This document shows, in pieces, positions 8,411-30,788 of a stretch of DNA of 64,000 bases (position 1 is its first letter; each line of letters opens with the position of its first letter). Location: assembly GCF_001043175.1 (NCBI RefSeq), contig NZ_CP011494.1:3162001-3226000 (forward strand). Direction: 5' to 3'. A program made the translations under genes and the position numbers. The stretch comes from Marinobacter psychrophilus (lineage in GTDB: Bacteria > Pseudomonadota > Gammaproteobacteria > Pseudomonadales > Oleiphilaceae). A model generated the notes under the pieces. The model did no database searches. It was not told the origin of the DNA and was given only the letters and a program-made list of their open reading frames with translations.

Positions 8411-10321
8411 CTAGACGCTGAAGCGCCGTGTGCTTTCGGAAATCACGTTAGCCTGCTCGGACAAACGCTGATTCTGCCTGCCAAGCTCAGCGCCAATGGC
8501 TTGCGTTTCGACACTCTGCCCGCGGATTTCTTCCATTTTTTGCGCAATGTCCTCAGTGGTGACGGAAATTTCCTCCACGGCAACCACCACCTGATCCATT
8601 TCTGAGTTCAGGGTAACAATCGATTGAGCCACCCCACCCATAGCGCCTGCAATCTGCGACGCATGGTGTTCACCTTCTTTCGCGATTTTGAGCCCGTTGC
8701 TAGCGAGGGTGTCCATGCTGGCGGTCTGCAAGTTGAGCTCGTCAATAATGCCAACAATGTTGGTGGTGGCGGCAACGGTTTTTTGTGCCAGGGTGCGAAC
8801 TTCATCAGCCACCACTGAAAAGCCGCGCCCTGCGTCACCCGCCCGAGCAGCTTCAATTGCAGCGTTGAGCGCCAGCAGATTGGTTTGGTCCGCCAAACTG
8901 TTGATAACGCCTATAATGCCGGTGACTTTGGCACTGGCCTGAGTGAGCAGTTTGACATGGCCATGGGTATCTTGAATCACGCCTGACAACAGGCGCACTG
9001 AGGCCACGCTGTCTTCAACCACGCGAGCCCCTGACTGCGCCGACTCGTTGGCGGCTTGAGTTGCAATACCCACCTGCGATGTGCGTTCGGCAACATCGTT
9101 CAGGGTGACGGATATTTGCTGACTGGCAGTGGCTGCCAGAATGGTTTGGGATTCAACTATTTCGTTGTTCTGCGTCAGTCGAACCATGGTTTTTTCAAGC
9201 TCATGATGAACCTCGATCAAATCCCGTGTGCCCGCAATAGACTCTCGCATCAGCACGCCGATTTTGTCGATCATCTGATTGGTAGCACTGCCCAGAACGT
9301 TGAATTCATCGTTATCATTGTCGCCAAGTGACAGTTTCTTGGTGAGGTCGCCCTCTGACACCCGCGACAAGAGCTCAACCACCAGGTTGAGCTGGCTAAC
9401 CAGAGCTCGCGAGGTAAGGAACAGCACCAGAACTAACAAAGGTGCAAACAGTAAAATAGAGCCAATGCTGACCATTTTGGCCGACACTTTGGCGTTTTCG
9501 GCGCTCAAAAGAGTGCTCGCTATCAGACCGGATTGCAGAGTCTCAGCTTGCGCTATAACTTGTTGCTGAAGGTTACCGCCGGCTTGTTCCGCATTGTTGG
9601 AAGTGGTGGCAATTTGCTGCAGAACGGCATCAGCCCGGTCAAACACGGCACGGTACTGGCTCGTGTTCTTGCCAATATCGATGTCTCGCCAATCGTACTC
9701 TTCAACAATGTCTTCCATAACCTTAATGGCTCGGCTTGAAGCTTCCGCCAGCGCGGGATTGCGAGTGCTAATGTAATTACCGGATGTGCTCTCGATTTCA
9801 TTAATAGCCTCATCAGTCAGGCTAAGGGACAGCGTCTGGAGCTCTGCCATAACGACAGCGAGCTCTTGGCGAATTCCGGCCGAATCAGAAAAACCGAGCA
9901 CATTCATCTGCTGCAGCCATTCCCGACGCAGCGTCACATAACGTTTGGCTTCCGTATGAATGGATTCTGCAAAGCGGATACTTCCTGGATCGTTCAGCTG
10001 ATTTGCTTGGCGTTGCAGTGCCTTGGCGTCTGATGTGAGCTCATCAAAATCTGCCAGCAACTCACTCTGGTCATCCCCGGAGAGCGTGGTGAGCTGTTTT
10101 TCAACAGCGTTCCATTTACTGGCAAGATTACTCGCACTGGTTTGGTAGCGTGATATCTGATAAACGGACTCATAGGAAGATGAAACGGTCTCTAATCCCC
10201 AGAGAATGGCCCCGGCAATAATAGTCATACCAGTCAGTGTTGCGATGATGAGCATCTGGAACTTCTGACGCCAGGACAAATTGAACTTCAAAATGTAGTC
10301 TCCATTGGTGTTGTCGGGCAC
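8411..10321 (-). CDS. Methyl-accepting chemotaxis protein
   Basis: A 636-residue transducer. A membrane helix at about residues 17-40 and a second around 290-310 enclose a periplasmic, mainly helical sensor of about 250 residues. A HAMP segment follows ([20 protein letters not shown]), then a long coiled-coil signalling domain whose hairpin tip carries the invariant [20 protein letters not shown]. It should feed CheA/CheW and is probably polar. The periplasmic ligand is unknown. The gene is divergent from the tmm operon, so a role in sensing methylated amines is possible, but that is only position-based. Confidence 0.92.
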
Positions 10322-10455: not shown

Positions 10456-10620
10456 CGTCGCAGCCCCAGATGTGCTAAGGTGCGGCTCTGACGTGCGAGC
10501 TACAAAGCATTTTCAATATGCTTTAGCCATCCGAGCGCTTCCCTCCAGCGTTTTCTCGACATCTTGCATGCAGATCTGTGGTCTTCCCACGCCTGACGCC
10601 CTGTCTCTTCGGACAGTTGC
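10456..10620 (+). ncRNA. Candidate structured leader element, copy A (upstream of tmm)
   Basis: This block in the 466-base gap before tmm aligns with 26084-26245 upstream of the ABC binding-protein gene. Five stems can be drawn in both copies in the same order. In this copy they are AGCC/GGCT (10462-10487), AAAGCAT/ATGCTTT (10504-10524), CGAG-CGCT with AGCG-bulge-CTCG (10532-10558), GTGG/CCAC (10578-10590) and CTGTC/GACAG (10601-10616). The loop of stem 1 contains GATGTG and CTAAGG in both copies. Several stems differ between copies yet stay paired, and the G-U pairs in the other copy favour plus-strand RNA. It lies about 170 bases before the tmm start. Function is inferred only. Confidence 0.5.
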
Positions 10621-10787
10621 CGTCTATGTCCTATTCCGCCATCGGTCAATCCGAATTTGGTGTGTCTCACTGCGAAACCTCGTGGCTTGATCGTTACCGT
10701 TCAAAGCTGAGCCCTTTTTCGCTTCCAAGTTGTCGCCCTGGCCGCTCTCGCCCGGTGCTCGATACAACGCCCTAAACAGGAAACATT

Positions 10788-12158
10788 ATGAGTTTTAAAA
10801 TTGCCATTTTAGGTGCAGGCCCAAGCGGCTTGGCCCAATTACGTGCTTTTGAAGCAGCCCGCGACGCCGGTGCAGATATCCCCGAAATCGTATGCTACGA
10901 AAAACAGAATGACTGGGGCGGTCTTTGGAACTACACCTGGCGCACGGGCCTGGACGCCTATGGCGAGCCCGTTCACAGCAGCATGTACCGCTATTTATGG
11001 TCAAACGGCCCCAAGGAATGTCTGGAGTTCGCGGACTACAGCTTCGAGGAACATTTTGGGCGCCCCATCCCGTCTTACCCGCCCCGCGCCGTGCTGCGCG
11101 ACTACATTATGGGCCGTGTGGCCAAGAGCAATGTGCGACAGTACATTCGCTTTAATACCGCGGTGCACTGGGTTGACTACAACGAAACCAGCGGCAAGTT
11201 CGCGGTGACCGTGCGAGACCTAAAACAGGACAAACTGAACACCGAAGAGTTCGACCATGTCATCGTTGCTACCGGGCACTTTTCGACCCCCAACGTGCCC
11301 TATTTTGAAGGTCTGGAGCAGTTTCCCGGCCGTGTGCTGCACGCCCACGATTTCCGCGACGCTTGCGAGTTCAAAGGTAAGGATCTTTTGCTGATCGGCA
11401 GCAGCTATTCCGCAGAAGACATAGGCACACAGTGCCACAAGTACGGCGCCAAATCGGTCACCTTCAGCTATCGCTCACAGCCCATGGGCTTCGATTGGCC
11501 AGAATCCTTCACCGAACTGCCGTTGTTAACGGAAGTGATCGGCAAGACGGCCCATTTTAAGGATGGCACCAGCAAAAAAGTTGACGCGATCATTCTTTGT
11601 ACCGGGTACCAGCATCACTTCCCGTTTCTGCCCAACGAACTGACGCTGACCACGCACAACCGGATGTACCCGGAAGGCCTGTACAAGGGCATCGTTTCCC
11701 TGGCCAATCCCAAGCTGATATTCCTTGGCATGCAGGATCAATACTACACTTTCAACATGTTCGATGCCCAGGCCTGGTATGCCCGTGATGTCATGCTCGG
11801 CCGCATCACACTGCCGGCAGACGACGCCATGGCGGCCGATAGCCGTGAATGGGTCGCCCGTGAACTGAAGCTCGTCGATCCCGTCGACGAGATAGATTTT
11901 CAGGCCGCGTACATACAGGATCTGCTTGAATCTACCGACTACCCAGCGTTCGATGTAACCGCCGTTGCCGGTATTTTCAAGCAATGGGAACACGATAAGG
12001 AAGCGGACATTCTTGGCTACCGCAACAAGAGCTACCGCTCCACGCTGACGGGCACCCTGGCGCCGGCACACCATACGCCCTGGATGGATGCGATGGACGA
12101 TTCGCTGGAAGCCTTCCTCAAGGTGAAGCAAGAGCAGCCAGCAAAGGAGACTGTATGA
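10788..12158 (+). CDS. tmm: Trimethylamine monooxygenase (flavin-containing monooxygenase)
   Basis: A 456-residue class B flavin monooxygenase. The FAD loop GAGPSG is at residues 9-14, the family fingerprint reads [11 protein letters not shown], and the NADPH-binding loop is GSSYSAED. The stretch around [16 protein letters not shown] and the overall length match bacterial Tmm, which oxidises trimethylamine to trimethylamine N-oxide with NADPH and O2, rather than longer Baeyer-Villiger enzymes. The gene has an AGGAAA site and heads an operon: its stop overlaps the next start by four bases (ATGA). The structured element at 10456-10620 lies upstream. The Tmm assignment rests on remembered family sequence; another amine-oxidising FMO is the alternative. 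Confidence 0.8.
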
Positions 12159-13246
12159 ATCAACCAAGCCTGAGCCAGGCTCGGTCGCGGTTCACCTCCA
12201 GCAGCATACGCTGGGGCTTTATGTGGGCTATGTGGGCCGCCGTGCTCTGGGGTGCCTGGTATGTGCCAGGCTCCGCGGTGTGGTTTGAAGCGCCCTATAT
12301 TAACTTGAGTTTCGATACCAACGCCCAGTTTCTGCTGGCTGCGGCGGTGCTGACCACCTTCAACGCCATTGCCGTGTTGTTTTTTCTGTTTGTCTGGAAC
12401 GGGGTATTGGGCAAACTGGGGGAATATGTTCGCACCATCAGACAGATGCGTTTTATATCCAAGTGGTTCTTTATCGGCGCCATATTCGGCGGCCCGATGG
12501 CCATCTTTGGCTCGTATCTGGCGATAGGCTACATTGGCGGGGCCTTCGCGGCCATTTCAGCGCTGATGTATCCCATCATCGGCGCCACCCTGGCCAGGCT
12601 CTGGTATCAGGAGAAGATCACCAAACGCGCAGCGGTCGGTATTTTTATCATCCTGGCAGGTGGCGTGACAGTCTATGCACCCGGCATTATTGCTGAAATC
12701 ACAGGCACCGGCGACGCCGGCTGGCTTGGCTATCTGGGCGGCGCAATGGCTGCCATTGGCTGGGGTGTAGAGGGCGCAATCGCAGGCCGCGGTCTAGATG
12801 TGGCCGATCCGGATGTGGGTATTACGGTGAGGTTCACGGCCGAAGTCCTGTATTGGGTTGTGCTGATTTTACCAGCGATCTACCTCTTCACTGACCAACC
12901 GGTTGTTGAACTGGTCATCGCCACATTTAACTGGGCGGTCATCGGCTGGCTGATGCTGGCGGGCGTGAGCTTCGCGTTCTGCTATGTCTCCTGGTACAAA
13001 TCTTTCCCACTGATAGGCGTTGGGCGAGGGCAAGCGATTGCGGCGTTGTACGGGCTTTTTGCCGTTATCTTCCTCGCCGCATTCACCCTCGAATTTCCGG
13101 ATTGGAACTTCCTTGCAGGCTTGGCTCTGTTCGTAATAGGCGGGTTTGTCATGTTCACGGAAAGCGACGAAGTGCTTGAGGTAGTCCGTGCCGTGTCGAG
13201 CGACACCAAAACGTCCACCGCCACCGCGAGTGCGGCCAGCTCATGA
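12155..13246 (+). CDS. EamA/DMT-family permease of the tmm operon
   Basis: A 363-residue inner-membrane protein with about ten hydrophobic helices in two EamA-like halves. It is longer than the usual 300 residues because of an N-terminal tail of about 20 residues and a Ser/Thr/Ala-rich C-terminal tail. Its start overlaps the tmm stop by four bases with a GGAG site inside tmm, so translation is probably coupled. In this setting it may move a methylated amine or its N-oxide across the inner membrane; direction and substrate are inference. Confidence 0.82.
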
Positions 13247-18184: not shown

Positions 18185-19870
18185 CTAGCTCTGTTGCCGC
18201 TTTGCCTCTCCTGAACGCTGACGTACCTGCCATTGCTCATCCATAACAACAGGTGCCTCTAAAGATTGGAGGGTTTCCTTGCCCCGGATCAGATCAGCGG
18301 CGCGTTCCGCAACCATGATGGTAGGCGCGTTCAGGTTGCCATTGGGTATCGTTGGAAAAATCGATGAATCCACAACACGCAGATTTTTGATGCCATGAAC
18401 CCGAGTTTGTGGATCTACCACTGCATGCTCATCGATACCCATCTTGCAGGTGCAGGATGGGTGATAAGCGCTCTCTACCGTCTGCCGAACAAAAGCGTCA
18501 ATTTTTTCGTCGCTGTCAACCGCGGTACCTGGCTGAATTTCCTCCCCGCGGTACTCATCCATTGCTGGCTGATTAATAATCTCTCGGGTCAGGCGAACGC
18601 ACGCCCGAAAACCTTCCCGGTCGGCTTCGTGCTGTAAATAGTTGAACTGTATCCGTGGCGCTTCTTTTGGATCAGCAGAATGTACGTGCACAGTGCCGCG
18701 GCTTTTGGGTTTATTGTGGCCAACGTGCAGCTGAAATCCGTCGCCGTCAAACGCTTCTTTGCCGTCATAACGCATTGCCGCAGGCAGGAAATGGTATTGC
18801 ATATCGGGCCATTCCACGCCCGCTTTGGAACGGATAAAACCACAAGATTCGAAGTGGTTGGTGGCACCAAGGCCATCTTTTTTCAGAATCCAGCGCACGC
18901 CTATTTTCAGTTTGTTCCACCAGTCGAGTTTGCCGTTTAACGACACCGGCTGTTCACATCGAAACTGAAAATAAAACTCCAGATGATCCTGCAGGTTTTC
19001 ACCCACCCCCGGCAGCTCGTGCTTGACCTCAATGCCGGCCTTTTCCAGAACTTCGCGGTTACCAATGCCGGAAAGCTGCAACAGGTGCGGAGAACCGATG
19101 GACCCTGCCGATAAAATCACCTCTTCAGTGGCTTTTACCTCGTGGATCTTACCGCTCTGTTCGTAACGCACACCCGTAGCGGTATGACCGTCGAGAAGCA
19201 CTTTGTGTACCAGAGCGTGGGTAACCACGGTCAGGTTGGGGCGACCCATAGCCGGCCGCAGATACGCATTCGCAGTAGACCAGCGACGACCATTTTTGAC
19301 CGTCATGTGCATGCTGCCAAACCCTTCCTGCTGGGCGCCGTTATAGTCTTTTGTAGGCAAATAACCGGCGTCCTGACCTGCGTTAATAAAGGCCTTATAC
19401 AGGGGGTTTTGCATATTGTTGCCGTTGTTTACGCCCAACGGACCGTCACCGCCACGGTAGCGATCACCGCCGAATGCCCAGGTCTCCGCTTTTTTGAAAT
19501 ATGGCAGTACCTGTTGGTAATTCCAGCCTTCTGCGCCTTTCGATTCCCATTCATCAAAGTCGCGGGCGTGGCCACGCACATACACCATGCCATTGATGGA
19601 CGACGATCCGCCCAGCACTTTGCCACGTGGGCAATGCATGCGACGGTTGTCCAGATAAGGCTCCGGTTCGGTTTCGAACTGCCAAGCGAACTTTTTGGTG
19701 TTCATAGGGATGGATAAGGCGGTCGGCATTTGAATAAAGATGCTTTTGTCGCTACCACCGGTCTCCAGCAGCAAAACCTTACGCTGGGTATCTTCGGTCA
19801 GGCGGTTAGCCAGCACACAGCCAGCAGAGCCGGCGCCCACAATGATGAAGTCATATTGGTTTCCTTTCAC
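18185..19870 (-). CDS. betA: Choline dehydrogenase
   Basis: A 561-residue GMC flavoprotein, full length for BetA. The FAD loop [18 protein letters not shown] is at the N-terminus, the GMC signature [17 protein letters not shown] around residue 85, and the catalytic-site histidine region near the C-terminus ([12 protein letters not shown]) is followed by the FAD-binding [17 protein letters not shown] block. It oxidises choline to betaine aldehyde, with electrons passing to the membrane chain. It is the third gene of betI-betB-betA, starting 26 bases after betB. Confidence 0.95.
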
Positions 19871-19896
19871 ACACGTTCTCCTTTATATCTCCGAAA

Positions 19897-21366
19897 TTAA
19901 AATGGTGCGTCGATGTCTTCCATACCTACATACACAGCTTTGAGCTGGGTGTAGTGAGAGATCGTCTCGCGGCCATTTTCGCGGCCAATACCAGAGAGTT
20001 TGTAGCCGCCCACGGGCATTTCAGCCGGCGAAGCTCCGTAGCTGTTAATCCAGCAAATACCTGCCTGCAGCCGATGAACAACCCGATGAGCACGGCGAAT
20101 ATCATTGGTAAACACGCCTGCCGCCAGTCCGGTTTCAGTCGAATTCGCGCGATCAATCACTTCATTTTCGGTGCTGAACGTGAGCACCGACATCACCGGC
20201 CCGAAAATTTCTTCCCGCACGATGGCCATATCGTCAGTGCAATCAGTGAAGATGGTCGGTTCAACAAAGTAGCCGCCCTTGGAATCTTCCGGCTCAAACG
20301 CGTGACCTCCATGACGGAGCGTTGCGCCTTCTGCCACACCTTTAGCGATAAAGCTCAATACCAGCTCGCGATGCTTTTCAGAAATAAGCGCACCAAAGTT
20401 GGTTTGCGGATTCATCGGATCGCCCGGCAGGATGTTATTGCGAGTGCGCTCCAACAAGCGCTCCATGAATTTCGAGTAGATATCCTCGTGCACGAACACT
20501 CGGGTGCCGTTGGTGCAGACTTCGCCCTGGGTATAAAAATTGCCTACCATGGCGGCCGAGATGGCATTCTCAAGATCAGCGTCGTCAAAAATGATGAGCG
20601 GGGATTTGCCACCTAGCTCCATAGTGACACTTTTCAACGTAGTCGCCGCAGCGGCCATGACCTTTTTGCCGGTACCTACTTCGCCAGTAAACGACACTTT
20701 GGCGATTTCAGGATGGTGGGTCAGCCAGGAGCCGACTTCCGCCGCGCCCTGTACGACGTTAAATACACCGGCGGGAACACCTGCTTCAATATAAATCTCA
20801 GCCAGTTTGGTGGCGCCCATTGGGGTTTCTTCAGACGGTTTGAAGATCATCGCGTTGCCACACGCCAGGGCCGGGGCAGACTTCCAACAAGCGATCTGTA
20901 GCGGGTAGTTCCAGGCGCCGATACCGGCGCATATTCCTAGCGGCTCTCGGCGGGTGTAATAGAAGTCACCGCCAAGATCCTGTTGGTTACCCTCGATCGA
21001 CGGCGCCAAACCAGCAAAAAACTCAATAGTATCGGCCCCGGTTGCGATGTCCACCGCTTGCGCTTCCTGCAAGGGTTTGCCGGTGTCCCAAACCTCAATG
21101 GCAGCCAGCTCATCGTTACGCTCACGCAGTAATGCGACGGCTTTTAGAAGAATGCGGCTGCGCTGCACGGCGGGCATGGCAGCCCACTCTGTAAATCCAA
21201 CCCGGGCGCTCTCAATGGCGGCCTGCTGCACAGATTCGTCCGCTATTTCTACTTCGTAGATCACTTTGCCCGTGGCCGGATTGACCACTGGAAACACCTC
21301 ACCGGTATTGTTAGCAAAGAAGCGACCGTGAATGAAGTTCTGTAATCGAGGTATTGAATGGGACAT
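19897..21366 (-). CDS. betB: Betaine aldehyde dehydrogenase
   Basis: A 489-residue NAD(P)-dependent aldehyde dehydrogenase with the expected catalytic residues: the general base in [12 protein letters not shown], the nucleophilic cysteine in [16 protein letters not shown], and EEIFGPV further on. It converts betaine aldehyde to glycine betaine, the osmoprotectant product of the bet pathway. I place the start at the ATG at 21366 (an MSHS start), which has an AAGG site; another in-frame ATG lies four codons upstream. It sits between betI and betA in the usual order. Confidence 0.95.
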
Positions 21367-21380
21367 AAAAACATACAACC

Positions 21381-26083: not shown

Positions 26084-26245
26084 CTCGCAGCCAGGATGTG
26101 TTAGCCTAAGGATTCTGGTATACGAGTTATCAAGTAGTTTTCTGCTTGACCAGTTCGAGCGCTCTCTTCCGGCGTATTCTCGAGATCTCGCGTTTCATCG
26201 GCGGCCTGCCCGCCCTCGGCCCTCTGTTTCACCGACAGATAAAGC
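26084..26245 (+). ncRNA. Candidate structured leader element, copy B (upstream of ABC importer)
   Basis: This element matches 10456-10620 in order and structure. Stems here are CCAG/CTGG (26091-26118, loop with GATGTG and CTAAGG), TCAAGTAG/CTGCTTGA with a TTTT loop (26130-26149, one G-U), CGAG-CGCT with GGCG-bulge-CTCG (26156-26182, one G-U), GGCGG/CCGCC (26200-26214) and TCTGT/ACAGA (26223-26239). Compared with copy A most stems change bases but keep pairing. The remainder of the 599-base gap (25925-26523) holds an imperfect hairpin (GGCGC with GCGCC) near 26354-26410 and a likely -10 box at 26464. Because that promoter lies between the element and the gene, the element could be a leader or a separate small RNA. 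Confidence 0.5.
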
Positions 26246-26463
26246 CTGCTCAAAGACAGATACAGCCTTCATAGAATTGCGCCATTAATACATTCGACCC
26301 TGGCGCGCACTACCAAAAAATCAAAGTCGTTATGGCTTTTAGAAGTACTTTTTGGGGCGCTGAATTACTAACGTGCTTTTTTAAGAAAGCTCGCGGCGCC
26401 GTCATTATCGTCAATTTTTTTGCCCAATATAATTTTGCGCCAAAAACAAGACAGGACTTTGCC

Positions 26464-26469: not shown

Positions 26470-26523
26470 CAAAGAAAGTACGAAATAATCCATTATGGAT
26501 AACAATACTTTTCGGAGATGTGT

Positions 26524-27453
26524 ATGAGATTTTTAAATAAACTTGCGACTGCCGCTGCAGTTAGCTCACTGGTGTTTGGCGCGACTGTAGCCCAAGCAGA
26601 TTCAAAAGAGCCTATTGTAATTGCCACCCATAACTGGACCAGCCAAATTACTATGGCTTACGTTATTGGCGGTATTTTTGAAAGCATTGGCGATAACGTT
26701 TCTTACGTACCTGCTGATAGCCAAGCGGTTTACGAATCGGTTCGTAACGGCGACGTCACTATTGCTCACGAAGTATGGCAATCTACCTTTGGCAAGTCTT
26801 TTAACAACGCTTTAGACGCTGGCGGTATTATTGATGTGGGCACGCACGCCTCTGCGACTCAAGAAGAGTGGTGGTACCCTGCATACGTCGGCGATTTATG
26901 CCCGGGCCTACCCTCTTGGGAGGCACTTAACGATTGTGCCGAACTGTTTGCAACGCCAGGCAGTGGCGGAAAAGGGCGTTATCTGGACGGCCCTATGGAT
27001 TGGCATGGCCAAGAGACCCTGGATCGCATTGAAGCACTGGACATGAACTTTACCGCCAAATTTGCCGGATCATCCGGTGCACTTTGGGCTGAACTGGAGT
27101 CTGCGGCTAAAGACAACCGTGCCGTGGTGGTCTTTAACTGGTCACCCAACTTTACCGATGCCGGTGACGGTGGCAGCTTCGTTAAATTCCCCGCTTATAC
27201 AGATGGCTGCAAGAAATCAGACGGCGGTGATGGCAAGTGTGGCTCGCCCCCAGCCGGTTGGTTGAAGAAAGCTGCGTATTATCAAATGCCCGCAAAATGG
27301 CCAACTGCTTATAAAATCTTTAACAACGTATCCTTTACCAAAAGCGATATAGGCAACATGGCAGCATTGGTAGACATCGATGGTATGACCCACGAAGCAG
27401 CCGCTACTAAATGGCTGGCTGATAACGAAGCAATCTGGAAAGCCTGGTTGTAA
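26524..27453 (+). CDS. Quaternary-amine ABC importer, periplasmic binding protein
   Basis: A 309-residue OpuAC/ProX-type substrate-binding protein with a signal peptide ending at VAQA. Tryptophan-bearing segments typical of the aromatic cage for trimethylammonium groups are spread along it: THNWTSQ, HEVWQSTF, EEWWYPAY, GPMDWHG and FNWSPNF. It should bind glycine betaine, TMAO, choline or a similar compound. The ATG at 26524 is preferred over the one at 26518, because CGGAG directly abuts the latter and is well spaced for the former. A strong hairpin follows the gene, then the ATPase and the fused permease. Confidence 0.88.
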   Translation: MRFLNKLATAAAVSSLVFGATVAQADSKEPIVIATHNWTSQITMAYVIGGIFESIGDNVSYVPADSQAVYESVRNGDVTIAHEVWQSTFGKSFNNALDAGGIIDVGTHASATQEEWWYPAYVGDLCPGLPSWEALNDCAELFATPGSGGKGRYLDGPMDWHGQETLDRIEALDMNFTAKFAGSSGALWAELESAAKDNRAVVVFNWSPNFTDAGDGGSFVKFPAYTDGCKKSDGGDGKCGSPPAGWLKKAAYYQMPAKWPTAYKIFNNVSFTKSDIGNMAALVDIDGMTHEAAATKWLADNEAIWKAWL

Positions 27454-27493: not shown

Positions 27494-27657
27494 TCTTATA
27501 TTCAGAATCTCTATTTTTTTATTCTGTTTTTTCAGTAACAGCAGAGCTATTGACGCGGTGCAACAATAATCTATTGCGCTTATTCGTCCGATATATCCAC
27601 TGAACTACTGCCATCAACCTTATCTCTTAGCACCACTTTTTATACGGGAATTTGATT

Positions 27658-28710
27658 ATGTCAACGTCAGCTCAGCCGGTCATCAAGTGCGAGTCTGTCT
27701 ATAAAATTTTTGGCGCTAACGCTGTAAAAATTCTGGAACAATCAGGCGGAAAAGTAGATACAGCATCGTTACTTAAAGCAGGATGTGTCATTGGCGTTAA
27801 CAACGCTTCTTTTGAAGTACACAAAGGTGAAATGCTCGTCATTATGGGCCTGTCAGGCTCTGGCAAATCCACACTTCTGCGTTGTATTTCACGGCTGATC
27901 GACACCACTGCGGGCGATATTTTTATTGATGGTGAAGACCTGCTTGCGATGAATGCAAAGGAACTCATCAACATCCGGCGTAATAAAATGGGCATGGTAT
28001 TCCAAAGTTTTGCCCTTCTGCCTCACAAAACCGTTCTCGAAAACATTGCCCTACCATTACAAGCAAAAGGCATAAGCACTCGCGACAGCATGGCCCGTGC
28101 GATGGACATGGTGAACCTGGTAGAGCTCACAAATTGCGAAAACGACTTTCCCCGCCAACTCTCCGGTGGACAACAACAGCGTGTCGGCATTGCCCGCTCA
28201 TTGGCCGTAGAACCTGAAATCTGGTTTCTCGATGAGCCCTTCTCAGCTCTGGACCCACTGATTCGCAGGGAAATGCAAGACGAGTTCCTGCGCTTACAAA
28301 GTGTCTTGCACAAGACCATCTTATTCGTTACCCACGACTTCGATGAGGCACTACGCCTTGCCGACCGCATCGCCATTATGAAAAACGGCGTTATCGAGCA
28401 AATTGATACCCCAGCCAACATCGTACTCAAGCCAGCCACGGAGTACGTCGCCAAATTTACCCGTGGCGTGCCCCGTGAGCGCGTACTTTCTTGCAGAGCC
28501 ATCATGGAAGAATACGACGCCACCGCCAAGATGAGCGACGTCACTGTTTCTGACCACGCCATCATCGAAACCGTAGCCGGGTCTGTGCTAACCGAGCAAA
28601 ACCCGGTGGCTGTCATTGATGCCGAGGGCAACATTGTTGGCGCTCTAAACCGCCGCATTATGATAGACGTCTTATTTGGTGAGACTAACAGCATGCCAGT
28701 TAATAACTAA
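27658..28710 (+). CDS. Quaternary-amine ABC importer, ATPase
   Basis: A 350-residue ProV/OpuAA-type ATPase. Walker A is GLSGSGKST, the Q-loop is in VFQSFALLPHKTVLEN, the signature is LSGGQQQRVGIARSLA, and Walker B is IWFLDEPFSALDP with the switch histidine in FVTHDFDEAL. The N-terminal FGANAVKILE region is typical of the glycine-betaine subfamily. The C-terminal 80 residues resemble a degenerate CBS-like sensor, used in this family for osmotic or ionic control. The ATG at 27658 is preferred over a TTG two codons earlier. Confidence 0.93.
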   Translation: MSTSAQPVIKCESVYKIFGANAVKILEQSGGKVDTASLLKAGCVIGVNNASFEVHKGEMLVIMGLSGSGKSTLLRCISRLIDTTAGDIFIDGEDLLAMNAKELINIRRNKMGMVFQSFALLPHKTVLENIALPLQAKGISTRDSMARAMDMVNLVELTNCENDFPRQLSGGQQQRVGIARSLAVEPEIWFLDEPFSALDPLIRREMQDEFLRLQSVLHKTILFVTHDFDEALRLADRIAIMKNGVIEQIDTPANIVLKPATEYVAKFTRGVPRERVLSCRAIMEEYDATAKMSDVTVSDHAIIETVAGSVLTEQNPVAVIDAEGNIVGALNRRIMIDVLFGETNSMPVNN

Positions 28711-28727: not shown

Positions 28728-30788
28728 ATGCAATATTTTACCGAACATAAATGGATGCAGTTTGTCGCCTTATTGGTGGTGTTCTTTGCGCTTGTAATGG
28801 CGATAGATCCCGCCACAGGTGGCAACCTCTGGCGCCTGCAAGAAACCCGGTTCTGGTTGCTGCCTGACGTTGTTAACGATGGCCTCAAGTTCCTCATCAA
28901 TGACTTTTGGGTGGTCGAAACTTACGATGCCGAGTTAGACATCATCGAACAATCAACCATGATGAAAGAGTTTACCCGCGACCTGTCTGGTGTGGTTCTG
29001 TTCAGCATCAATTTGATTCGTGAGATCCTGTTAGGGGGCGTCAAAACCGTTGTGGCCTTCACCAGCTGGGACTTTATCAGCGAAAACGAGTGGGCTCGAA
29101 TCCCCGCACTGCCGTGGCCTACTGTTGCTGCGGGTGCATTTTTAACAGGGCAGTATCTTGGTGGCCGCAACCTGTCACTTTTAGCCGGCATCAGCACTAT
29201 TTACATTGCCGTGTTTGGTCAGTGGACCCCCGCCATGCAAACCCTATCGTTTGTGTTGGTGGCCGTACCTTTATCGGTTTTTCTGGGGTTAACCCTTGGC
29301 ATCATCGCCTTCAGGAACAAAACCTTCGAGTCTGTCCTCGCACCACTGCTGAACGTGGCTCAAACCATGCCCCACTTCTCGTACCTGATCCCGGTCGTAG
29401 TGTTCTTCGGCATTGGTGACCAGGCGGGTGCTATTTCAACGGTTATTTTTGCCACTCCACCAATGATTCGTCTTACCATTCTAGGCCTGAAGAAGGTCTC
29501 TCCAGAAGTGGTGGAAGCCGGCATGATGAGTGGCTGCAACTCACGCCAACTTATGTTTAAAGTACTCATCCCTACGGCACGCCATGACATTTTAATCGGT
29601 GTTAACCAGGTCATCATGCAGTGTTTGGCCATGGCCGTTATCGCATCGTTTATTGGCGCAAAAGGCTTAGGCTACGACTTACTGGTGTCTTTGAATATGC
29701 TCAAGATAGGCCAGGCTCTCGAACTTGGTATATCCATTGTCTTAATTGCAGTGGTTCTGGATAGGTTATCCCTGGCCTGGGCCAAAAAGCAGGTTGATTA
29801 CTTTGCAAACGTACCGTTTTATGTGCGTCACAAGTACTCACTCGCTTTCGTGGGGATTTTCATCTTCACCTCCATTATTGCCTATGTCGCGTCTGTGATT
29901 TTTCCAGACAAGGCCAACTACTTTTATTTTATTCATGAATCACAGGGGCTTACTACCGAAAAGTTCTGGGATTCTATTGTAGACTGGATCATCACCAACA
30001 CTTACGACAGCGTGCAAAGCTTCAACTTCTTCATGATTACCTCGATTTTGATGCCCATGAAAGAAGCCTATTTATCGATGCCCGTCGCGGCAACTCTGTT
30101 CCTGGTGGCAGGTACCGGTTACATCGTTGGCGGCCTTCGCTCTGCGATTGTTGCGACGGCTCTTATTGCCTTTATTGCCCTAACACCCTGGTGGGACCGC
30201 GCCCTGATTACGGCCTATATGACCACCTTTGCCGTCATCATTTCCGTAACGATTGGCTGTAGCGTCGGCATTTTGTGCTCGCGCAACCCCAAAGCAACCA
30301 AGTTTATGTTGCTGGTGTGTGACACGTTTCAGACATTTCCGTCGTTCGTCTACTTAATCCCGGTCATCATGCTGTTTGGTGTCAGCGATTTATCAGTGCT
30401 TATTGCAGTGATCGTGTACGCCACCATCCCTGCCACACGTTACACCGTAGAAGGATTGTGTAACGTGCCGAAAAGCTTGCAGGAAGCCGGCTCCATGTCA
30501 GGAGTTAACCGCACGCAGCGTTTACTGAAAATTGAACTGCCCCTGGCGTTCCCTCACATCATGCTAGGCATCAACCAAACCGTCATATTCTCATTGTTTA
30601 TGATCATCATCGGCGCCTTTATCGGTACCGACGATTTAGGTCAGCTGATCATGCAGTCTTTGTCTCAAGCCAACGGCATGGGCCAAGGCATCGTGCTCGG
30701 CTTGTGCGTCGCCTTTATTGGCCTGGCCGTAGACCACTTGATTCACACCTGGGCAGAGCAGCGTAAGAAAGTGCTTGGGCTTAGTTAA
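28728..30788 (+). CDS. Quaternary-amine ABC importer, fused double permease
   Basis: A 686-residue inner-membrane protein made of two ProW-like permease domains in tandem. Each half has several helices and its own EAA loop: VEAGMMSGCNSRQLMFKVLIP in the first half and LQEAGSMSGVNRTQRLLKIELP in the second, each preceded by the similar TMPHFSYLIPVVVFFG and TFPSFVYLIPVIMLFG. The standard subunit is about 280-380 residues and forms a homodimer, so this gene encodes both halves as one chain. It starts 17 bases after the ATPase stop and completes the importer operon. Confidence 0.92.
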   Translation: MQYFTEHKWMQFVALLVVFFALVMAIDPATGGNLWRLQETRFWLLPDVVNDGLKFLINDFWVVETYDAELDIIEQSTMMKEFTRDLSGVVLFSINLIREILLGGVKTVVAFTSWDFISENEWARIPALPWPTVAAGAFLTGQYLGGRNLSLLAGISTIYIAVFGQWTPAMQTLSFVLVAVPLSVFLGLTLGIIAFRNKTFESVLAPLLNVAQTMPHFSYLIPVVVFFGIGDQAGAISTVIFATPPMIRLTILGLKKVSPEVVEAGMMSGCNSRQLMFKVLIPTARHDILIGVNQVIMQCLAMAVIASFIGAKGLGYDLLVSLNMLKIGQALELGISIVLIAVVLDRLSLAWAKKQVDYFANVPFYVRHKYSLAFVGIFIFTSIIAYVASVIFPDKANYFYFIHESQGLTTEKFWDSIVDWIITNTYDSVQSFNFFMITSILMPMKEAYLSMPVAATLFLVAGTGYIVGGLRSAIVATALIAFIALTPWWDRALITAYMTTFAVIISVTIGCSVGILCSRNPKATKFMLLVCDTFQTFPSFVYLIPVIMLFGVSDLSVLIAVIVYATIPATRYTVEGLCNVPKSLQEAGSMSGVNRTQRLLKIELPLAFPHIMLGINQTVIFSLFMIIIGAFIGTDDLGQLIMQSLSQANGMGQGIVLGLCVAFIGLAVDHLIHTWAEQRKKVLGLS

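Follow-up and report, generated by a model that had tools for sequence, protein, structure and literature searches.

This locus raises the question of why two operons of the window (the whole 64-kb stretch of DNA analyzed here), one starting with tmm and the other encoding an ABC importer, are preceded by similar sequences. The initial annotation had read these sequences as two copies of a structured RNA, here copy A and copy B, and its alignment of 10456-10620 with 26084-26245 was borne out, with a mean column identity of 74%. A profile built from copies A and B alone, run over the best 80 of 351 tmm loci and a few others, located the element about 330 nt ahead of tmm not only in Marinobacter but also in Halopseudomonas, Pseudomonas, Psychromonas, Dasania and Halomonas (best match E 4e-32, at the Halopseudomonas locus L009), and the likeness of the two copies is thus not due to chance. 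Promoter, fold and gene association were observed directly; together with a probable action in cis, they make it likely that these leaders constitute a real and new RNA family serving both trimethylamine (TMA) oxidation and TMAO import. The genes concerned are as follows.

10788-12158, + strand: tmm, trimethylamine monooxygenase (NF058570, 828 bits, cut-off 675)
26326-26362, + strand: apparent decayed start of a lost tmm (alignment with four relatives; blastn of the window weak, E 0.005)
26518-27453, + strand: tmoX, TMAO-type substrate-binding protein (PDB 4xz6, E 5.6e-103; PF04069)
27652-28710, + strand: probable tmoW, ABC ATPase, named by position and family
28728-30788, + strand: probable tmoV, ABC permease, named by position and family

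The PDB entry 4XZ6 is TmoX of Ruegeria pomeroyi, for which PMC8918994 gives the residues of the TMAO pocket; in an alignment read by eye, the window protein shares the motifs HNW, EVWxxxF, EWWYP and FNW. Given this TmoX-like substrate protein, the importer is of the TMAO type, a point missed when it was initially described as a quaternary-amine ABC importer. Nearby, an EamA-family transporter gene (12155-13246, + strand) overlaps the end of tmm by 4 bases and is possibly co-translated with it, and choline dehydrogenase and betaine-aldehyde dehydrogenase genes (18185-21378, − strand) occupy part of the interval from tmm to tmoXWV. A methyl-accepting chemotaxis protein gene (8411-10321, − strand) is divergent from the tmm leader, and its product could be a methylated-amine chemoreceptor.

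Promoter and folded domain

The first of five stems proposed initially (AGCC/GGCT in copy A, CCAG/CTGG in copy B) was rejected as a conserved helix. Its two versions do not share one offset from the −10 element, and at either offset 4/4 pairs form in 1/38 of the type-1 members described in the next section, the window copy itself. What had been taken for its conserved loop, GATGTG..CTAAGG, is instead an extended −10 promoter, whose pattern TGTGnTAnnnT is exact in 34/38 type-1 members and one letter off in the other four. The strict pattern TGTGNTANNNT was found within 450 nt upstream of tmm in 34/54 beta- and gammaproteobacterial loci, compared with 1.3 in base shuffles (these loci being related rather than independent), and in 0/26 alphaproteobacterial or unassigned loci. 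A consensus promoter scan demanding a −35 box listed the extended −10 of neither window copy. The RNA would start just downstream of the extended −10, at about 10488 for copy A, and type-1 tmm leaders, reckoned from this predicted start, are about 285-300 nt long. Long leaders behind a far-upstream extended −10 were also seen at the beta- and gammaproteobacterial tmm loci L029, L036, L040, L041, L051, L053, L055 and L056, which belong to none of the similarity groups. The parts of the two window copies, all on the + strand, are listed below.

Copy A
10471-10481, +: extended −10 promoter TGTGCTAAGGT of tmm (TGTGnTAnnnT conserved; hexamer 10476-10481)
10488-10670, +: conserved 5′ domain of the tmm leader, folded into P2-P7 (R1 match 10525-10672; fold z −7.2)
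10504-10524, +: P2, AAAGCA 10504-10509 / TGCTTT 10519-10524 (initial stem 2)
10532-10558, +: P3, CGA and GCGC 10532-10538 / GCGT 10548-10551 and TCG 10556-10558 (contains initial stem 3)
10578-10590, +: P4, GTGG 10578-10581 / CCAC 10587-10590 (initial stem 4)
10595-10624, +: P6, GAC 10595-10597 / GTC 10622-10624, around P5 (covariation alignment)
10601-10605 / 10612-10616, +: P5, CTGTC / GACAG, inside P6 (initial stem 5)
10637-10662, +: P7, CGCC 10637-10640 / GGTG 10659-10662 (covariation alignment)
10642-10645 / 10651-10654, +: inner hairpin of P7, TCGG / CCGA
10671-10787, +: rest of the tmm leader, no conserved fold (z +0.15), sequence still similar

Copy B
26097-26107, +: extended −10 promoter TGTGTTAGCCT (identical in 5 genomes; hexamer 26102-26107)
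26114-26313, +: folded leader domain (P2-P7) upstream of tmoXWV (R1 E 9.6e-30; fold z −4.8)
26130-26149, +: P2, TCAAGTA 26130-26136 / TGCTTGA 26143-26149
26155-26183, +: P3, TCGAGCGC 26155-26162 / GCGT 26172-26175 and TCGA 26180-26183
26200-26214, +: P4, GGCGG 26200-26204 / CCGCC 26210-26214
26218-26267, +: P6, GGC 26218-26220 / GCC 26265-26267, around P5
26223-26227 / 26235-26239 (or repeat 26256-26260), +: P5, TCTGT / ACAGA, inside P6
26278-26307, +: P7, TGCGCC 26278-26283 / GGCGCG 26302-26307

Stems 2 to 5, corresponding to P2, the inner part of P3, P4 and P5, recur in 38 homologues with sequence changes that preserve the pairing. To these are added the outer helix of P3, P6, and P7 with its inner hairpin, so that the domain reaches to about 10670 in copy A and 26313 in copy B. 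The proportion of cells paired is 87% for P2, 95-100% for P3, 98% for P4 and 100% for P6; P7 and its inner hairpin (83% and 88%) are among the weakest helices, and a P7-like hairpin is also found in type 2, the diverged form described below. Both members of the pair have changed in 4/7 pairs of P2 and 3/5 pairs of P4. One P4 pair is U-A in 18 members and C-G in 16, and one P6 pair is G-C in 29 and A-U in 7 (numbers of sequences, not of events), while in type 2 one inner pair of P3 is C-G in 4/11 and G-C in 4/11. The linkers from P3 to P4 and from P6 to P7 contain unpaired segments that are conserved. In copy B, the inner hairpin of P7 has one A-C mismatch in the window and is paired in four relatives; a 21-nt insertion repeating ACAGATAnAGCCT and common to five genomes lies in P5/P6 (26235-26268).

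The fold was assessed by a structure-directed test on a plain MAFFT alignment of the 38 type-1 sequences (38 pairs, 1426 cells), in which 92.4% of the cells were paired. Both-side changes were found in 17/38 pairs compared with 7.8 in shuffles, and the covariation score was 0.217 compared with 0.158 ± 0.006 after shuffling, with 0/500 shuffles as high on either measure. These shuffles ignore relatedness; slid controls, which keep it, gave covariation scores of at most 0.072 and were all far worse than the proposed structure. The measure of further pair types was reached by 52/500 shuffles with 34 sequences and by 2/500 with 38. In type 2 (11 sequences), both-side changes occurred in 6/24 pairs compared with 2.1 after shuffling. 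RNAalifold gave z −7.2 for P2-P7 in 15 tmm copies (0/200 shuffles as low), the consensus fold of nine tmoX copies gave z −4.8 (representatives at most 90% identical, or 98% for the tmoX copies), and the remaining 118 leader columns gave z +0.15, with no conserved fold. Taken singly, type-1 leaders had folding energies only modestly below those of shuffled sequence (mean z −1.6, 12 shuffles per leader). The covariation looked for on the basis of the initial annotation was thus found for the proposed structure against shuffled and slid controls, but a blind all-pairs test with a phylogeny-preserving null gave 0 significant pairs among 46,665 (best E 3.7, for a non-complementary pair). Because the set used in the blind test is small and clade-structured, weight is placed on the structure-directed tests, by which the domain has a conserved secondary structure with compensatory change.

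The pairs also indicate the strand. G-U occupies 129 cells and A-C 50 (38 pairs in 34 sequences), which favors transcription of the plus strand, as proposed at the outset, because an A-C on the plus strand would read as G-U on the minus strand; a minus-strand RNA, considered in view of the pyrimidine-rich plus strand, is disfavored by the same counts. It is very improbable that the similarity reflects DNA elements, such as the promoter and regulator sites, and not an RNA. The promoter is indeed among the most conserved blocks and inverted repeats can be protein sites, but the fold begins only after the −10, both-side pair changes occur in 8/9 helices counted, and G-U cells outnumber A-C cells.

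The view that no known RNA class has this pattern agrees with a search of Rfam 15, which gave 0 matches at the gathering threshold across the 64-kb window, none over copy A at E ≤ 10, and near copy B two weak matches only, far under the gathering score; on seven homologous loci it gave two tRNAs and nothing else. No conserved leader peptide was found among 15 type-1 leaders, in which reading frames vary in position and length, with L017 lacking any of at least 20 codons.

Distribution of the leader family

The search for further homologues, suggested initially as a check, returned 38 distinct type-1 sites by covariance models, 26 before tmm and 12 before tmoX, in addition to type 2. The type-1 model, R1, was built from 20 of the 38 sites (19 at tmm and copy B), and 18 of these 19 tmm sites are loci that had been fetched by their tmm gene; the other 18 type-1 sites (7 at tmm, 11 at tmoX) came solely from the search with the model. 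Strong R1 matches were present in 21/40 genomes behind the loci, 11/124 genomes of the genus, 7/341 of the order, 8/37 of the Halopseudomonas group, 4/298 of a Pseudomonas group and 1/369 of the class, the last being the window's own genome, and they sit at two genes only, tmm and tmoX. Where more than 40 genomes were scanned, the filters were stricter and weak matches are lost. Entries judged from identical coordinates to represent the same genome (G109=G058, G130=G079, G139=G059 and G1238=G074) and two copies of the window (L001, L004) were dropped, and L123 was counted under tmoX despite an intervening tmm stub. A transposon end, which had been named as a possible source of the similarity, or any other mobile element end or repeat is not supported: the window's genome holds two sites only, and comparison of copy A with plasmids and of copy B with phages gave no match.

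Type 2 is the tmm leader of Halomonas relatives and of a few Marinobacter. A scan of 124 + 275 genomes with its model, R2, yielded 9 strong sites, each of them before tmm; 7 had been used to build the model. Although built from type-2 sequences only, R2 recovered 12/16 of the type-1 sites that the searched sequences contain (E 0.0007 to 0.63 over 686 kb; best match 21 bits), with only 2 other rows, both non-element, in the 686 kb; R1 in turn found the type-2 locus L028 at E 1e-4. Both types are therefore homologous and belong to one family. The weak R1 rows L108 and L114 are likewise genuine type-2 tmm leaders. In the Marinobacter genomes G006 (L156, L117) and G079/G130 (L139, L118), tmm carries a type-2 leader and tmoX a type-1 leader. 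This suggests that tmm was replaced by transfer and looks as if each RNA type moved together with its promoter-gene unit.

Several matches were judged to be due to chance. For R1 these are L137 (E 0.0018, in the 298 genomes), which overlaps an unrelated frame, L109, L115/L122, L116, L083, the second row of L119 and one row in the 40-genome set; for R2 they are L141, L142 and L149, which lie inside coding frames, and the two rows of the 686-kb search.

The tmm loci of a group informally labeled Xanthomonadaceae (L037-L058, L062; Stenotrophomonas, Lysobacter, Luteimonas) have structured leaders about 190-310 nt upstream, with z −4.4, and most have a far-upstream extended −10 pattern. The fold test of this third type used 10/15 leaders and 80 shuffles, leaving out L037, L044, L050, L057 and L062 as shorter or more divergent. 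R1 matched none of these leaders, and R2 none of those sampled.

Copy B and the probable loss of tmm

The presence of the same leader before an importer can be understood from the gene order in relatives. The order leader-tmm-tmoX-tmoW-tmoV is intact in one Marinobacter genome (L150), in another (L151) tmoX lies about 1.7 kb after tmm, and in L123/L155 the leader and tmm codons 1-123 abut tmoX. In the window's lineage, a short, decaying tmm start follows the RNA, with blastn E 1.5e-9 to 6.7e-14 in four relatives and the weak match given above in the window. No tmm remnant was found by blastn in L096, L107 and L129; ahead of the tmoX upstream stretch, L096 and L107 keep more of the leader and L129 little beyond P7. 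A second genus of the order contributes three genomes with the leader before tmoX, one of them with a tmm relic (L161, E 6e-8). Copy B is thus probably left over from a leader-tmm-tmoXWV operon whose tmm has gone, and this loss accounts best for the element's place before the importer, better than a separate origin at two loci. A protein-coding remnant, raised initially as an alternative identity for the element, does follow copy B, but the RNA itself lies upstream of it. In L123, the tmm stub is separated from tmoX by a stretch with a GC-rich inverted repeat (L123:2140-2186) that is terminator-like by eye and has no T run.

Loss of tmm could have left copy B a functionless fossil of the lost operon, with copy A alone of importance, a reading that we regard as improbable. 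It would account for the decayed tmm start after copy B, and tmoX may have a promoter of its own, since the conserved tmoX-proximal stretch contains a TATAAT, although the consensus scan lists none there. Against it, copy B keeps its fold, and leader-tmoX fusions with other breakpoints occur in L096, L107, L129 and L123 and in the second genus. Among the five genomes with the arrangement of copy B, moreover, variable columns number 23/190 in the RNA, 40/125 in the relic (Fisher p 2.4e-5), 98/310 at tmoX third positions (p 5.6e-7 compared with the RNA) and 20/77 in the tmoX-proximal stretch (p 0.009 compared with the RNA), so that the odds of a variable column are about 3.4-fold lower in the copy B RNA than in the relic or at tmoX third positions. 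Mean pairwise identities are 94.1% for the RNA, 84.9% for the relic and 84.6% for tmoX third positions. Because it changes far more slowly than either, the copy B RNA is still under purifying selection.

The intact operon, tmm stub, relic and clean fusion together form a natural deletion series, an unusual experiment in nature in which the RNA stays under selection once its original gene is lost, and which points to P2-P7 as the working domain.

Mode of action and relation to known systems

Judging from sequence, the leader is probably transcribed and acts in cis. The extended −10 promoter would start a transcript whose first ~185 nt fold into P2-P7; the same RNA would read on into tmm, or into tmoXWV where the lineage has lost tmm, and P2-P7 would set how much TMA-oxidation or TMAO-import message is made or kept. 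We infer an action on transcription elongation or message stability, not on masking of the ribosome site, because in the B group and L129 little is left beyond P7, and the P2-P7 domain stands about 205 and 76 nt from the start codon of a tmoX with which it has not evolved. Masking of the ribosome site also found no support in 15 type-1 leaders, where the mean unpaired value was 0.31 compared with 0.25 with shuffled leaders; type-2 leaders were left out of these figures, the Shine-Dalgarno site being misplaced in 4/9 and two giving no value.

The version that we tentatively prefer, at less than even confidence, is a conditional C-rich Rho-type attenuator whose folding would respond to a methylated-amine or nitrogen signal. 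Leaders are pyrimidine-rich in 53/53 loci and have C in excess of G in 51/53, with a median C/G ratio of 1.29 compared with 1.07 in tmm coding regions, and in both window copies the richest 80-nt C>G stretch lies inside the P2-P7 domain. Because 42/53 tmm coding regions also have more C than G, this stretch as a putative Rho-loading region is suggestive only. No intrinsic terminator was found in copies A and B.

That the signal is a small molecule bound by the leader RNA is conceivable, though doubtful. The same grade of doubt attaches to the reading of P2-P7 as a TMA- or TMAO-binding riboswitch, in which a methylated-amine aptamer would switch the operon. The conserved unpaired segments of the two linkers noted above would suit such an aptamer, strong matches precede genes of TMA oxidation or TMAO import, and retention at the importer after loss of tmm fits a common ligand. 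However, there is no recognizable expression platform, the window copies having no terminator and the ribosome site being no more hidden than in shuffled leaders, and the Xanthomonadaceae-type tmm leaders escape both models. The leaders are, furthermore, A-poor (median 16%) and pyrimidine-rich, and most aptamers differ from them in composition. We know of no RNA sensor of trimethylamine or TMAO, and we consider it rather unlikely that P2-P7 is one that rules both oxidation and uptake and was kept for the importer after loss of the oxidase.

It is unlikely that mRNA stability is set by a protein bound to the leader (for example Hfq, ProQ or one specific to the operon), although the pyrimidine-rich conserved linkers and the distance from the start codon, which suits stability control, would fit this reading. 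Still less probable is a small RNA that acts in trans and is made from a promoter of its own before tmm, with tmm transcribed separately or by read-through. Such an RNA would explain why the domain outlives the loss of its downstream gene and why the conserved fold stops short of the gene-proximal part. All 38 type-1 sites, however, are upstream of and co-oriented with tmm or tmoX, the distance from the profile end to the tmm start is held at 160-172 nt in 18 type-1 tmm loci, the next ~118 nt are still similar in sequence, and a terminator is missing from both window copies.

The leader family shares features with two kinds of known leader. Like the riboswitch leaders among the cis-regulatory entries of Rfam, the present family has a structured 5′ domain with pairing-keeping changes, genes of one pathway downstream and a promoter immediately upstream; unlike them, it has no Rfam match, neither a terminator nor a ribosome-site switch was found, and any ligand is putative. 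The mgtA leader is a Rho-dependent attenuator. Leaders of the mgtA type resemble the present ones in being long and C-rich, in standing before a transport or catabolic gene and in showing no intrinsic terminator; they differ in that the leaders studied here have no conserved leader peptide and the role of Rho is that of a candidate.

The 104 candidate bacterial RNAs of PMC2864571 are also motifs found by comparative genomics, several of them in Pseudomonas; the main text of that paper contains none of the words monooxygenase, trimethylamine, Marinobacter and betaine. A literature search, of little weight because subscription journals lay mostly outside its coverage, found no paper joining tmm or TMAO genes with a structured RNA; the review PMC11446756 has a single mention of either term.

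Much of the importance of methylated amines lies in their being a major part of the dissolved organic nitrogen of the sea. In Ruegeria pomeroyi, two DNA-binding proteins control tmm: TmoR, whose effectors are dimethylamine or TMAO, and TmaR (PMC13390433). The words riboswitch and untranslated are absent from the main text of that paper. That system concerns the same gene, tmm, there under methylated-amine-dependent control, and differs from the present one in acting through DNA-binding proteins, where the Gammaproteobacteria have a conserved and putatively transcribed RNA. Our results suggest RNA-level control of tmm and, in some species, of the TMAO importer genes. Since the known Roseobacter regulators of tmm are proteins, the leader RNA of Gammaproteobacteria would, if this is true, be an RNA-level layer of tmm control that is additional or alternative to them.
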